The notes under the pieces: generated by a model
What the model was told of the DNA's origin: nothing
Databases searched by the model: none
The model's input: only the letters and a program-made list of their open reading frames with translations
Origin: an uncultured Alphaproteobacteria bacterium
GTDB taxonomy: Bacteria; Pseudomonadota; Alphaproteobacteria; Micavibrionales; Micavibrionaceae
Direction: 5' to 3'
DNA length: 64,000 nucleotides
Assembly: GCA_937923625.1 (NCBI GenBank)
Contig: CALDTV010000010.1
Span: 1 to 64,000 of the forward strand
Translations under genes and position numbers: made by a program
Shown here: positions 9,736-14,763 of the stretch, piece after piece
Numbering within the stretch: position 1 is the first letter of the stretch
Layout: every line of letters begins with the position of its first letter

Positions 9736-10473
9736 TTAATTTATCTTTTTACCAATGAGAGCAGAGAGAATTCCATGTAGCGTTCTAATCTCTTGCTGGG
9801 TTAGATCGGTGCGGGAAAAAAGGTTGCGGATGTTGCGCATCATTGTTGGCTTCATGTCTGGATTACGAAAGAAATTATGGCCTTGTAATTCTTCTTCTAG
9901 TCTTGTGATGAACTCATCAAACTCTGCGTGGGTTGCGAGGGCCGAGTCTCCTGTTGGCATATGAACAGGCGTTGTTTTATCAGTCGTTAAATTTATTTCA
10001 TGCGCCATTAATAAAACGCTTTGGGCGAGATTGAGGGACGCAAATTTCGGATTTACGGGCACTGAAATAATATGATGCGCCAGAGCGATATCATCATTGC
10101 TGAGGCCAGCTCGTTCCCCACCAAATAGGGCGGCGGAGCGTTTGCCGTTTGATTGATCAACGGCAATATTTTTTGCCGCCTCACGCGGGGTATAAACTTT
10201 TTTACGCATGTCACGGGGGCGGGCGGTGGTGGCGTAAATAGTATGAAATTCCTTTAACGCATCAGCGGTATGATCAAATAGTTGAACAGGTTTTAGAATG
10301 TCGAGCGCGCCAACGGCGTTGGCGGTTGCAACGTCGTTTGGCCAGCCATCACGGGGGGCAATCAAACGCAAATCTTCTAGATTAAAATTCGCCATCGCGC
10401 GTGCCGCGGCGCCAATATTCTCCCCCATTTGCGGGGCAACAAGAATAATGGCGGGCGTCATAAGCTCAGGCAT
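9736..10473 (-). CDS. trmJ: tRNA (cytidine/uridine-2'-O-)-methyltransferase TrmJ (SPOUT family)
   Basis: TrmJ methylates the 2'-OH of position 32 in tRNA anticodon loops using S-adenosylmethionine. The 245-residue protein has the SpoU/TrmH motifs in order: motif 1 VAPQMGENIGAAARAMANF, motif 2 ALFGGERAGLSNDDI, and motif 3 VPVNPKFASLNLAQSVLL. A helical C-terminal extension after residue 165 fits TrmJ rather than the shorter TrmL. Its ATG overlaps the gltX stop by one base (TAATG), indicating translational coupling. Confidence 0.9.
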   Translation of the reverse strand: MPELMTPAIILVAPQMGENIGAAARAMANFNLEDLRLIAPRDGWPNDVATANAVGALDILKPVQLFDHTADALKEFHTIYATTARPRDMRKKVYTPREAAKNIAVDQSNGKRSAALFGGERAGLSNDDIALAHHIISVPVNPKFASLNLAQSVLLMAHEINLTTDKTTPVHMPTGDSALATHAEFDEFITRLEEELQGHNFFRNPDMKPTMMRNIRNLFSRTDLTQQEIRTLHGILSALIGKKIN

Positions 10474-11819
10474 TAACCAACCAAACGTTTTTTAACTTTT
10501 TCAGGGCCAAGTAAGGGTAATAATATTGGCAATTCTGGACCGTGATCCATACCTGTTAAGGCTTGGCGTAACGGCATGAAAAGCGTTTTACCTTTGCGGT
10601 CTGTGGTATCTTTTACTTTGCCCACCCAATCTTTAAAGGTGTTTTCATCCCAAGGGGCAGGGGGGAGAAGTTCCGCGGCTTGGGCAACAAAATCTTTATC
10701 TTCATCTGCCACCGTCGATGTCAGCGGAGCATTGACAACGTTCCACCATTCTTTGATATCTTTCAGTTTTTCTAAATTTGGTTTAACCGCATTCCAGAAA
10801 TTTTCATCTAAATCGTTTAAGTCCATATCGTTTAAACGTGATTTAACATCATCATAATTGGTTTGATGTAATATTTTGGCATTCAAACGGTAGAGTTCTT
10901 CTGTATCAAACTTTGGCGGGTTACGGGAGAATTTCGAAAAATCAAAGCTTTCAACCAATGGCGTGATGTCCGTGTAAGCTTCAATCGGGTCGCACGTACC
11001 AAGCCGTGCCATCAATGAGACAACAGACATTGGTTCTAATCCTTCAGTATTTTCAACTTCTTTTAAGCTAAGCGAGCCAAGGCGCTTGGATAATTTACCC
11101 CCTTCGGCATCGGCAATAAGGGATAAATGCGCGAAGGTTGGCACGTTGCCTTCGCCAGAAATGGCTTCGAACATTTGTACGTGTGTTGCGGTGTTGGACA
11201 CATGGTCTTCCCCGCGCACAACGTGGGTGATGTCAAAATCAACGTCATCAATCACAGAACATAAATGATAAAGCGGGCGTCCATCTTCACGCAAGACGAC
11301 AGGATCAGATAAATCTTCGCCTTTAAATTCAACATCGCCGCGGATCATATCGTTCCATTTGATGGGCGCGTGATTTAATTTAAAACGCCAGTGCGGTGTG
11401 CGACCTTCGGCTGCATATTTCGCAATTTGCTCATCGGTCAAAGATAATCCCGCACGGTCATAGGTCGGCGGCACGCCGCGTGATAATTGTGTTTTACGTT
11501 TCAAGCCAAGCTCTTCTGGTGTTTCATAACACGCATAAAGGCGGCCATTTTGTTTTAAGGTTTCAATCACTTCGGCATAACGATCTGTGCGGTCTTTTTG
11601 ATTAACTTTGTCATCCCAATCAAGCCCCATCCATGTCAGCCCATCCATGATGGCTTGTTCATATTCGTCCTTTGAACGCTCGCGGTCAGTATCGTCAATA
11701 CGAAGTAAGAAATGCCCGTTTTGATTGCGCGCAAAAAGCCAGCAAATAAGCGCGGTACGGGCATTACCAACATGCAACATACCAGTAGGCGAGGGGGCAA
11801 AACGAATTTTAACAGACAT
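10473..11819 (-). CDS. gltX: Glutamyl-tRNA synthetase
   Basis: 448 residues. A class I synthetase that charges tRNA-Glu (and in many alphaproteobacteria also tRNA-Gln). FAPSPTGMLHVGNARTAL carries the HIGH-like signature as HVGN, and GGKLSKRLGSL carries KMSKS as KLSKR. The RIDDTDRERSKDEYE segment that positions Glu is intact. The C-terminal half is the helical anticodon-binding domain. Many alphaproteobacteria have two gltX genes and this could be either. First gene of a minus-strand group with trmJ. Confidence 0.95.
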   Translation of the reverse strand: MSVKIRFAPSPTGMLHVGNARTALICWLFARNQNGHFLLRIDDTDRERSKDEYEQAIMDGLTWMGLDWDDKVNQKDRTDRYAEVIETLKQNGRLYACYETPEELGLKRKTQLSRGVPPTYDRAGLSLTDEQIAKYAAEGRTPHWRFKLNHAPIKWNDMIRGDVEFKGEDLSDPVVLREDGRPLYHLCSVIDDVDFDITHVVRGEDHVSNTATHVQMFEAISGEGNVPTFAHLSLIADAEGGKLSKRLGSLSLKEVENTEGLEPMSVVSLMARLGTCDPIEAYTDITPLVESFDFSKFSRNPPKFDTEELYRLNAKILHQTNYDDVKSRLNDMDLNDLDENFWNAVKPNLEKLKDIKEWWNVVNAPLTSTVADEDKDFVAQAAELLPPAPWDENTFKDWVGKVKDTTDRKGKTLFMPLRQALTGMDHGPELPILLPLLGPEKVKKRLVG

Positions 11820-11943: not shown

Positions 11944-12333
11944 ATGTCAGTTATTGAAAAAAAACGCCCGTCTAAAAAAGGTAGAACAGATTCTGGCGCG
12001 CCAAATATTGTTCCTAAAAAGCGGCGCGAGCCAGAAGAATGGCATGTCCGCTTACTATTAACAGAAGAGGGAAAACAGACGAAATCTTTTAAAGATGATC
12101 GAATGCTAGTGAGAGCTACGCACGCTATCGTTCTTCGTGACATTTTTAATATTAAGTATGTTTCAGCTGTTTTGAAAATTGCTGTTGTTGAATCACAAGG
12201 ATTTACCAGTATTTTTGCTGGTACGAGAGAAGTATGTGAATCAAAGATGCAACAAGCTCAAGATCGTTTGGAACGCATTAACTCTCCAGATTGGGCAAAA
12301 GACGCTTTAACATATGACGTTTCTAAAATGTGA
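11944..12333 (+). CDS. ClpS-like protein, paralogue 1
   Basis: The ATG at 11944 follows AGAGAGTAAGA and gives 129 residues; an earlier frame start at 11920 lacks a ribosome site. A basic, disordered N-terminus of about 35 residues (KKRPSKKGR) precedes a ClpS-like core. WHVRLLLTEE takes the place of the first strand, IVLRDIFNIKYVSAV the helix, and GFTSIFAGTREVCESKM matches the E. coli ClpS segment ending VFTAEVAETKV. ClpS delivers N-degron substrates to ClpA. Its pocket residues (Asn-Asp-Asp and His66 in E. coli) are not preserved here: TEEGK replaces NDD, and Glu replaces His. So the fold is likely but N-degron binding is doubtful. First of three tandem paralogues. Confidence 0.68.
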   Translation: MSVIEKKRPSKKGRTDSGAPNIVPKKRREPEEWHVRLLLTEEGKQTKSFKDDRMLVRATHAIVLRDIFNIKYVSAVLKIAVVESQGFTSIFAGTREVCESKMQQAQDRLERINSPDWAKDALTYDVSKM

Positions 12334-12344
12334 TTGTAAATCGA

Positions 12345-12673
12345 ATGAGTACTTCCACGATTATACCCCCAACAAAAAAGAAGAAGCCGCATAAGGGGAA
12401 TCCTTAGGCTAAGATTGTTTTTCATTTGGCCGCAGAAAAACCTGATGATACAAGGATTATGGGTTTTTTAGGGGTGCTTTTAATCTGGATAAGCGCAGGG
12501 CAATGCAAAAAGCAAGGCTTGCTATAGATGCTCAAGGGGTTGTTGTATTTACAGGATCTGAAAAAGCGGCCAAAGCTAAAATGAAGACGGCTATCAAATT
12601 AAGAAGGCGTATAAAAGAACAGGGTGTTAAAAATACAAGCGGTCTTTTAATGAGAGTGCAGCGATTTAATTGA
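12345..12673 (+). pseudogene. ClpS-like protein, paralogue 2, decayed (stop codon plus frameshift)
   Basis: Starts at the ATG at 12345 (MSTSTIIPPTKKKKPHKGNP), hits TAG at 12405-12407, and continues in the same frame as AKIVFHLAAEKPDDT. Coding similarity then shifts to another frame around the T-run at 12464-12469, reading GAFNLDKRRAMQKARLAIDA and GVVVFTGSEKAAKAKM to a TGA at 12671-12673. Joined, these pieces follow the neighbours' ClpS-like core (GLSIVFTGSAEIAETKA in paralogue 3). One nonsense and one frameshift lesion make a functional product unlikely unless recoding or sequence error is involved. Confidence 0.7.
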
Positions 12674-12704
12674 ACATCATAAAGTGTGAAATGAAACCAA
12701 CACC

Positions 12705-13028
12705 ATGAACGCAATCGTGAAAGATAGACCTGTTGTAGAGACAGCCCTAAAGCCAAAAGAGCCGAGCTTGTTTGATGTGATTTTCTTTAAAAAAGATAAT
12801 CTTTGCATAACAGACGAGGTGATTACTTTAAAACATGTGTTTAGGGTGGATGAGAATACAGCGATAGATCACGTAGAGCGTGCTGCGGTAAATGGTTTGT
12901 CGATTGTTTTTACGGGCAGTGCCGAGATTGCAGAAACCAAAGCAGATCAAGCGAACGCATTCTTACAAAACACGATGTATGGCGAAAAGCTTTTAGCACA
13001 TTGTTGGTTTACATTCAAAAGAAGATAA
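12705..13028 (+). CDS. ClpS-like protein, paralogue 3
   Basis: 107 residues, close to the length of true ClpS. After a short polar N-terminus, SLFDVIFFKKDN fits strand 1 and its loop, VITLKHVFRVDENTAIDHVE the helix pair, and GLSIVFTGSAEIAETKADQA the most conserved ClpS strand-turn-helix; a GEKLLAHCWF end fits the last strand (HPLLCTLE in E. coli). The NDD pocket is replaced by KKDN, and the His at the start of the G-x-x-V-x-x-G/F segment by Asn. It probably docks to a Clp ATPase or copies the fold for another partner; N-degron recognition is not supported. No strong ribosome site precedes the ATG. Confidence 0.7.
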   Translation: MNAIVKDRPVVETALKPKEPSLFDVIFFKKDNLCITDEVITLKHVFRVDENTAIDHVERAAVNGLSIVFTGSAEIAETKADQANAFLQNTMYGEKLLAHCWFTFKRR

Positions 13029-13040
13029 AAGCCTATAGTC

Positions 13041-14636
13041 TTAATTTTTTGCCGTTGATTTAAAAAATCCATTTGTCATGGGAATGCGGCGATTACGGCC
13101 AAAGGCTTTGGTCGTTATTTTAACCCCTGGTGGTGCTTGGCGGCGTTTATATTCGTTGCGGTCTAACATCTGCCAAATGCGTTTAACGGTTTTGGGGTCG
13201 TGCGGGATATCGGCGGGCGGTGTATTTTTTTCAATTAAATGTTCCAAAATATCATCAAGTACATCATAGGGCGGTAAGCTGTCTTGGTCTGTTTGGTCAG
13301 GTTTTAATTCCGCACTGGGCGCTTTGGTGATGATACGTTCAGGGATAACTAAACTTTGGCTGTTGCGCCATTTTGAAAGTGCGTAGACTTGCCCTTTATA
13401 TAAATCTTTAAGCGCGTTAAACCCGCCACACATATCGCCATAAAGTGTTGCGTAGCCAACGGCCATTTCTGATTTATTACCCGTCGTTAAAACCATTTTA
13501 CCGCTGGCATTGGATAACGCCATCAGTGTCATGCCGCGGGCGCGGGATTGGATGTTTTCAAAAGTCGTGCCCGCAGTTTTTTCGTTAATTGTTTTTGCGA
13601 GCATTTCATCAAACGCCTTCATAGCGGGTTCGATAGAAATAGTATCTAGTGTGATGCCTAACAATCTTGCGCACTCTGCCGCATCATCAAGGCTGTCTTG
13701 GGAGGTGAAAGGGGAAGGCATCATGACACAATGCACTCTATCTGCGCCTAAGGCGTCAACAGCTATGGCGGCGGATAACGCACTGTCTATTCCACCAGAT
13801 AGACCAATGAGCACACCAAGGAAATTATTTTTCGTGACGTAATCATGTAAACCAAGAATGAGGGCATTATAGATCGTTTGTTCGTCACTTTTTTGTAAGG
13901 CATGTGTATTTAAGTTTGAGGCACTGATAGCCTCTTCAAATGTTGGAAGAGAATGTGTGACCTTGCCATTTTGATCCATCACAAATGAGCCACCATCAAA
14001 AACCAATTCATCTTGCCCACCAATTTTGTTGACATATACCAAGGGTAATCCTGTTTCCTTCACGCGGTCTGTCGCTTGTTTAAGCCGCATTTTGTGGATG
14101 TCGGTTTGAAACGGGCTGCCGTTTGGCACGATAAGCATTTCTGCGCCGTGTTCTTTTAAATTCACGGCAACATCACTAAACCACATGTCCTCACAAATCA
14201 TGATGCCTAGCTTTGTTCCTTTAAAATCATAAGGTTCAGCGATCGCGCCTTGCGTAAAAATGCGTTTTTCATCAAATACACCGTAATTGGGCAAATGATG
14301 TTTAAACACCGTATGCAGAATTTCACCGTCATGAATGAGATGCGCGGCATTATAAATTTTGTCCTTTATGCGCCAAGGCGTCGGCAAGATAAGGGCGGCG
14401 TTGTAACTTTTGCTCTGCTCAATAATATCTTGAACGTGATGTTCAACCCGATCCATAAAATAAGGATTGAGAACGAGATCATCGGTTGGATAACCTGTTG
14501 TTATCATTTCAGGGAAAACAATAAGACCACCCTTTTGATGTGTCGAACAGACATCCAAAATCTTCTTGCCGTTACCCACCAAATCCCCAACGGTGGGGTT
14601 TAGCTGGGAGAGAGTGATTTTCAGATCGTTAATCAT
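13041..14636 (-). CDS. nadE: Glutamine-dependent NAD+ synthetase
   Basis: Catalyses the last step of NAD+ synthesis, amidating deamido-NAD+ with ammonia from glutamine. The ATG at 14636 (MINDLKITLSQLNPTVGD) is chosen; the frame stays open to 14747 but the extra residues are not like the family. The N-terminal nitrilase-type glutaminase domain shows FPEMITTGYPTDD (Glu) and ICEDMWFSD (Cys). The C-terminal synthetase domain has the ATP-pyrophosphatase loop LSGGIDSALSAAIAVDALG, TTGNKSEMAVGYATLYGDM, and ends with KITTKAFGRNRRIPMTNGF. 531 residues is normal for the two-domain form. Confidence 0.96.
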   Translation of the reverse strand: MINDLKITLSQLNPTVGDLVGNGKKILDVCSTHQKGGLIVFPEMITTGYPTDDLVLNPYFMDRVEHHVQDIIEQSKSYNAALILPTPWRIKDKIYNAAHLIHDGEILHTVFKHHLPNYGVFDEKRIFTQGAIAEPYDFKGTKLGIMICEDMWFSDVAVNLKEHGAEMLIVPNGSPFQTDIHKMRLKQATDRVKETGLPLVYVNKIGGQDELVFDGGSFVMDQNGKVTHSLPTFEEAISASNLNTHALQKSDEQTIYNALILGLHDYVTKNNFLGVLIGLSGGIDSALSAAIAVDALGADRVHCVMMPSPFTSQDSLDDAAECARLLGITLDTISIEPAMKAFDEMLAKTINEKTAGTTFENIQSRARGMTLMALSNASGKMVLTTGNKSEMAVGYATLYGDMCGGFNALKDLYKGQVYALSKWRNSQSLVIPERIITKAPSAELKPDQTDQDSLPPYDVLDDILEHLIEKNTPPADIPHDPKTVKRIWQMLDRNEYKRRQAPPGVKITTKAFGRNRRIPMTNGFFKSTAKN

Positions 14637-14732
14637 AGTTGTTTTTAAACCACAGAGCCGCAGAGTCACAAAGTTTTTTTTACAAATAATGTATCTGAAA
14701 TTTTGAAGAAAGCTTGTAAACACATAGTGTAT

Positions 14733-14763
14733 AAAAAAACGGAGCATAGGGTATATGCTCCGT
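14733..14763 (-). terminator. Rho-independent terminator for the gene at 14790-15119
   Basis: A perfect 10-bp stem (ACGGAGCATA / TATGCTCCGT, 14739-14748 with 14754-14763, 5-base loop). Read on the minus strand, it is followed by a T-run (the A-run at 14733-14739 on the plus strand). It sits between this small gene and nadE and separates their transcription. Confidence 0.85.

Follow-up and report, generated by a model that had tools for sequence, protein, structure and literature searches.

Between gltX and nadE, the forward strand of the window, i.e., the whole 64,000-nucleotide stretch analyzed here (contig CALDTV010000010.1, from an uncultured member of the Micavibrionaceae), carries three ClpS-like reading frames in head-to-tail order. 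The stretch between the two flanking genes is hereafter called the slot, and the frames are numbered 1, 2 (decayed) and 3 from 5' to 3' on that strand (Table 1). Frame 1 carries the ClpA-docking motif REVCESK and an insert of about 11 residues ahead of the pocket loop; the motif of frame 3 reads AEIAETK. The ATG of the decayed copy lies 11 bases past the frame 1 stop. This copy has an in-frame stop at codon 21, followed by a frame change, and its ClpS-like C-terminal half is still open (positions 12449-12673). Frame 3 ends 12 bases from the end of nadE. An earlier note on this DNA had described two intact frames and one decayed frame of ClpS type, a description borne out by the ORFs and by the slot-profile scores given below. 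The note had also proposed a check for a canonical clpS elsewhere in the genome; an ordinary clpS is indeed present in the window's own genome, adjoining clpA. A promoter and terminator scan returned 7 promoter-like sites, with 3.6 expected, and 1 terminator-like site, with 1.4 expected.

Table 1. Genes and reading frames at the slot (positions in the window)
Feature	Position	Strand	Description and basis
gltX (glutamyl-tRNA synthetase, named from sequence)	10473..11819	-	divergent flank; ORF
ClpS-like protein 1 (frame 1)	11944..12333	+	129 aa, intact, ATG 11944
Decayed ClpS-like copy (frame 2)	12345..12673	+	ATG 12345; reading frames; remnant profile score
ClpS-like protein 3 (frame 3)	12705..13028	+	107 aa, intact, ATG 12705
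nadE (glutamine-dependent NAD+ synthetase, named from sequence)	13041..14747	-	convergent flank; ORF

Occurrence of ClpS-like genes in the slot

We have surveyed the slot in the family to which the window belongs (104 genomes), gltX being located in 95 of them at E ≤ 1e-120. Three genomes (G046, G048 and G056) were left out because gltX was matched in part only or right where a contig ends, and the stretch upstream of gltX was thus surveyed in 92. A tblastn search with the nadE protein of the window placed nadE upstream of gltX in 80 of these stretches. In 46 of the 80, nadE begins at most 215 bases from the cut point, which itself falls about 60 bases inside gltX, so that there is scant room in the slot there. 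A clear ClpS-like gene was found in the same gltX/nadE slot in eight of the 92 genomes, from four genera: the window genome (G000; three, one decayed), G002, G016, G017, G039, G095, G101 and G105. The search for homologous genes in relatives that had been suggested was therefore positive. No clear ClpS-like gene was found in the remaining 84 surveyed slots, that of G060 among them, and in G004 the gap measures 323 bp and holds no ORF of at least 55 aa.

Three further genomes (G001, G007 and G009) had candidates of similar layout that were not counted as members. Aligned with hhalign, the G007 candidate gave E 0.0008 against the slot set and E 0.012 against ordinary ClpS; the corresponding values for the G001/G009 pair were 0.0012 and 0.17. 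G007 (L078, slot-oriented positions 206-535 and 561-767) may hold a divergent ClpS-like gene and, behind it, another copy that is truncated; this would make a possible, weakly indicated second tandem.

Searching the 104 genomes with frame 1 as a single query gave matches at E ≤ 0.1 in seven: its own and, weakly, six others. Among 385 genomes sampled across the class, a set that lacks most slot genomes, slot-profile scores higher than 71 bits were reached by slot proteins only (of G016 and G000). None of our searches turned up a close relative of the window copies. With frame 3 as query, no relative was found in IMG/VR or, by tblastn, in phage records, and a phage source is therefore not supported; ordinary ClpS as query retrieved 70 loci (L192-L261) from IMG/VR. 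Other ORFs occupy the gltX/nadE gap in several genomes, and the position of the ClpS-like genes therefore implies no link to gltX or nadE; a functional link to either gene was not adopted. In the slot of G095 (L084:665-1510), a 281-aa ORF, macro domain-like by eye, lies between the ClpS-like gene and nadE. In the open-licence literature on ClpS and Micavibrio, on ClpS-like paralogues and on anti-adaptors, no account of a slot family of this kind was found.

Other unusual ClpS genes were observed outside the slot. Four genomes (G100, G102, G033 and G098) have a further ClpS gene between apparent ileS and lspA genes, both named from sequence (L061:1381-1704, DNT; L062:1375-1692, NDD; L270:1864-2184, NDD; L273:2058-2453, NDN), with the pocket His present in all four. 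G053 carries a tandem of divergent ClpS-like genes with no gltX alongside (L038:1646-2131 and 2149-2532), scoring 20.7 and 12.8 bits with the Pfam ClpS model, both below its cut-off. Finally, unlike ordinary ClpS, the ClpS domains encoded in G131 (L272:1958-2539) and G043 (L275:395-925) are extended N-terminally by about 100 residues.

Relationship to ClpS and to the ClpS2 type

Frame 3 scored 25.1 bits with the Pfam ClpS model (PF02617, cut-off 23); frame 1 scored 16.9 bits, below the cut-off, and a 56-aa piece of the decayed copy gave no match. With the NCBIfam ClpS models, frame 3 scored 32.5 bits at best, short of the equivalog cut-off of 159, and frame 1 gave no match. The nearest solved sequence to frame 3 was Agrobacterium ClpS2 (PDB 4yjm, E 0.0019).

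Leave-one-out profiles built from the slot proteins gave 62.3 bits for frame 3 (best shuffle 10.8, with 896 of 1000 shuffles reported) and 30.6 bits for frame 1 (best shuffle 9.1, with 892 of 1000 reported). When the 653 open stretches of the window were scored with a profile built without both window proteins, frame 3, frame 1 and the decayed remnant took ranks 1, 2 and 3 (56.8, 27.3 and 7.4 bits, respectively). Of 2000 shuffles, 2 reached the score of the remnant; taken alone, the N-terminal part of this decayed copy was not above chance (155 of 2000 shuffles). Scored with an ordinary-ClpS profile, frame 3 reached 24.1 bits (best shuffle 6.3) and frame 1 only 6.8 bits, below its best shuffle (8.2); the slot proteins of G095 and G101 were likewise not above their best shuffles. 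Frame 1 is therefore tied to ClpS via its slot relatives and not directly.

Of the 142 genomes of the order, 132 have a match at E ≤ 0.01 to profile A2, which was built from the nine slot proteins only; the slot members' own genomes are included in this count. The matches fell mostly at ordinary clpS genes, where E was mostly between 1e-10 and 1e-14. Aligning the slot set with ordinary ClpS by hhalign gave E 2e-16. Judged from these sequence comparisons, the homology of the slot family to ClpS is firm at the profile level.

For all nine slot proteins, the score from a ClpS2-type profile exceeded that from a ClpS1-type one (7.9 vs 4.1 bits for frame 1), a comparison that leans to ClpS2 because six of the eight ClpS2 sequences had first been chosen for their high slot-profile scores. 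A 61-sequence tree with a ClpS1 as its root placed the nine slot proteins and the eight ClpS2 sequences in one clade (UFBoot 94), within which the slot proteins alone were also recovered as a clade (UFBoot 78). The ClpS2 label rests on resemblance to ClpS2 of Agrobacterium tumefaciens (PDB 4yjm, 4yjx, 4yka). Descent of the slot proteins from the ClpS2 type is thus supported, as read from profiles and tree. The slot proteins differ from the ClpS2-type sequences of the class, which they resemble in sequence and join in one clade, by sitting between gltX and nadE and by their pocket: six ClpS2-type sequences keep Asn-Asp-Asp and the His, and no slot protein keeps the triad.

We have also considered the fold of frame 3. 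A single-sequence model had a pLDDT of 60.6, and the 50 PDB matches listed for it include no ClpS. An alignment-guided model reached a pLDDT of 87.2, and all 30 of its PDB matches at E ≤ 0.001 are ClpS, A. tumefaciens ClpS2 being among the nearest folds. Its alignment combined both window proteins with 28 ClpS from viral contigs and so leans towards ClpS; the model hence supports, without proving, a ClpS fold. The refuting result that had been proposed, a fold unrelated to ClpS, did not arise for the alignment-guided model, which has ClpS rows in its alignment, whereas the single-sequence model, of low confidence, pointed to no ClpS. The intact window proteins probably keep the ClpS fold. That the likeness to ClpS is a chance one, confined to a short strand-turn-helix, would agree with the single-sequence model and with frame 1 scoring below the Pfam cut-off and not above shuffles with the ordinary-ClpS profile. 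Such an explanation is highly improbable given the leave-one-out scores, the matches of the slot-only profile to ordinary ClpS, the hhalign value and the ClpS2 clade. The derivation from ClpS put forward in the earlier note is supported.

Expansion by duplication, which had also been proposed, is weakly supported: among the 92 surveyed slots, three copies occur in the window genome only, and the tandem in G007 is weak. Since the two intact copies share only 27% identity, a recent duplication is unlikely; the duplication in the window would be old, or its copies would have diverged fast.

N-degron pocket, ClpA-docking residues and N-terminal extension

In the passages of PMC12493166 drawn on here, the amino group of the N-degron is contacted by Caulobacter ClpS Asn47, Asp49 and His79, which correspond, by our offset of 13, to positions 34, 36 and 66 of E. 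coli ClpS, whose numbering is used throughout. The complete triad was found in none of the nine slot proteins and in all 54 ordinary ClpS rows (53 distinct, the genome's own ClpS being entered twice; all were selected by similarity to that ClpS at E ≤ 1e-20). Two of the three residues are kept in G016 and G105 (Asn34 and His66) and in G002 (Asn34 and Asp36). Both window proteins keep one, Asp36, found within Lys-Lys-Asp in frame 3 and, in the alignment used, within Lys-Asp-Asp past the insert in frame 1, around which the alignment is uncertain. Position 66 is Ala in frame 3, Glu in frame 1 and, by eye, Asp in the remnant. Thr38 and Met40 are absent from all nine proteins, and most pocket positions have no replacement pattern common across genera. 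The loss of a complete N-degron triad claimed in the earlier note was thus confirmed. Its details were right in part: Asn34 and His66 are gone from the window proteins, but Asp36 of the Asn-Asp-Asp stretch is kept in both, and of the residues given for the His position (Glu, Asp or Asn), Glu and Asp stand, whereas frame 3 has Ala and not Asn.

ClpS contacts the N-domain of ClpA through Glu79, Glu82 and Lys84, according to the same passages of PMC12493166. Position 79 is acidic in all nine slot proteins (five Glu, four Asp), Glu82 is present in eight and Lys84 in seven; G002 is without Glu82 and Lys84, and G101 without Lys84. Both window proteins have all three residues, and the window genome's own ClpA is identical to E. 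coli ClpA at the partner residues Glu23, Glu28, Thr81 and Arg86, as read from the alignment. For the statistics, eight sequences were used, G105 being dropped as a near duplicate of G016. Cells identical to ordinary ClpS amounted to 17 of 24 at docking positions vs 20 of 96 at pocket positions (Fisher 6.7e-6 over cells), and the docking set was kept better than random conserved positions (permutation p 0.03 for identity and 0.02 for similarity). Compared with other ClpS-conserved positions, erosion of the pocket gave permutation p 0.08 for identity and 0.25 for similarity (Fisher over cells 0.025). The pocket being not significantly more eroded than other positions, the contrast between pocket and docking set rests on retention at the three docking positions. 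The pocket would then have eroded about like the remainder of the protein while docking was held. Judging from the ClpS fold, residues 79-84 probably begin a helix, and this stretch could therefore be kept for folding.

PMC9663308 reports entry of the N-terminal extension of E. coli ClpS into the pore of ClpA, and also that ClpS becomes degradable once Pro24-Pro25 is altered. The junction proline, Pro25, is found in all nine slot proteins, preceded by 18-29 residues, and Pro24 in three only.

In the G016/G105 pair, dN/dS of the slot gene is about 0.05, like that of nadE, with dS near saturation, and the gene is under strong purifying selection; the pocket-bearing stretches (25-45 and 62-69) are identical at 27 of 29 positions. 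Between G039 and G095, which belong to one genus, the slot protein is 35% identical vs 71% for nadE.

Possible roles of the slot proteins

On balance, we favor the view that the slot proteins are ClpS2-derived paralogues that dock on ClpA, are blind to N-degrons and change what ClpAP degrades. The intact window proteins, assuming that they are expressed, would dock on the ClpA N-domain via the kept residues and would have lost N-degron binding in the ordinary way. Slot proteins in general should not bind N-degrons ordinarily, because part of the N-degron site is gone. Once docked, such a protein would alter degradation by ClpAP, either by filling both the pore and the site of ClpS, and so competing with the genome's ordinary ClpS, or by presenting a partner held through the remodelled pocket region. 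We regard these two routes as about equally likely and drift towards loss as less likely, the latter being above all a possibility for the window copies. The more specific proposal of a dedicated ClpS2-derived pseudo-adaptor lineage, held at one slot in Micavibrio relatives, docking on ClpA, blind to N-degrons and antagonizing or redirecting ClpS, is put forward tentatively.

Several known proteins are informative here. Leptospira ClpS1, as described in the parts of PMC12493166 consulted, has Asp in place of the pocket His, binds ClpA and lowers its ATPase activity. Like the slot proteins, it is a second ClpS encoded away from clpA with its pocket His replaced; it differs in reportedly retaining one Asn and one Asp of the pocket and in having Val for Lys84, which seven of the nine slot proteins keep. 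Synechococcus ClpS2, another ClpS paralogue to which the slot proteins can be likened, is reported to block degradation of a model substrate, casein (PMC6274998), but works with ClpC and has a reported affinity for N-terminal Leu, Phe, Tyr, Val and Ile (PMC7966870). The Salmonella anti-adaptors HspQ and MgtC would resemble the slot proteins, if these compete with ClpS, in reducing ClpS-dependent delivery, but act on ClpS or on the substrate and are not described as ClpS-derived in the relevant part of PMC7966870.

If the slot proteins were competitors, i.e., anti-adaptors, they would sit where ClpS docks on the N-domain of ClpA and place their extension in the pore, so that both ClpS-dependent and SsrA degradation fall. 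Kept docking residues and a kept extension alongside an incomplete triad, coexistence with an ordinary clpS-clpA pair and the precedents of Synechococcus ClpS2 (PMC6274998) and Leptospira ClpS1 (PMC12493166) are compatible with this role, for which the chances are perhaps one in three. A pure competitor, however, has no evident reason to retain the former pocket region as closely as G016 and G105 do. This close retention, despite near-saturated synonymous sites, would suit alternative adaptors, with the protein of each lineage delivering a specific non-N-degron partner to ClpAP via its remodelled pocket. Adaptors of this kind, which would also account for the kept N-terminal extension, seem to us just as plausible as competitors. 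Against them, pocket replacements follow no common pattern across genera at most positions, the identity between G016 and G105 may merely reflect folding constraint, and the neighborhood suggests no partner gene.

The slot proteins might also be relics of a ClpS2 gene, drifting towards loss and without present function. The function of the slot gene is dispensable, since one window copy has decayed and most surveyed slots are without a clear ClpS-like gene. The decay, the few slots with clear members, the short G004 gap devoid of longer ORFs and the divergence between the G039 and G095 proteins, well beyond that of nadE, would all suit such relics. Nevertheless, we consider this unlikely: intact frames occur in four genera, the G016/G105 gene is under strong purifying selection, and the docking residues are retained better than other conserved positions.

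If true, the favored reading, namely that of N-degron-blind, ClpA-docking paralogues derived from ClpS2, would illustrate the conversion of a protease adaptor into a regulator of that protease. The slot proteins would then provide natural mutants with which docking, engagement of the pore and binding of degrons could be told apart in ClpAPS.
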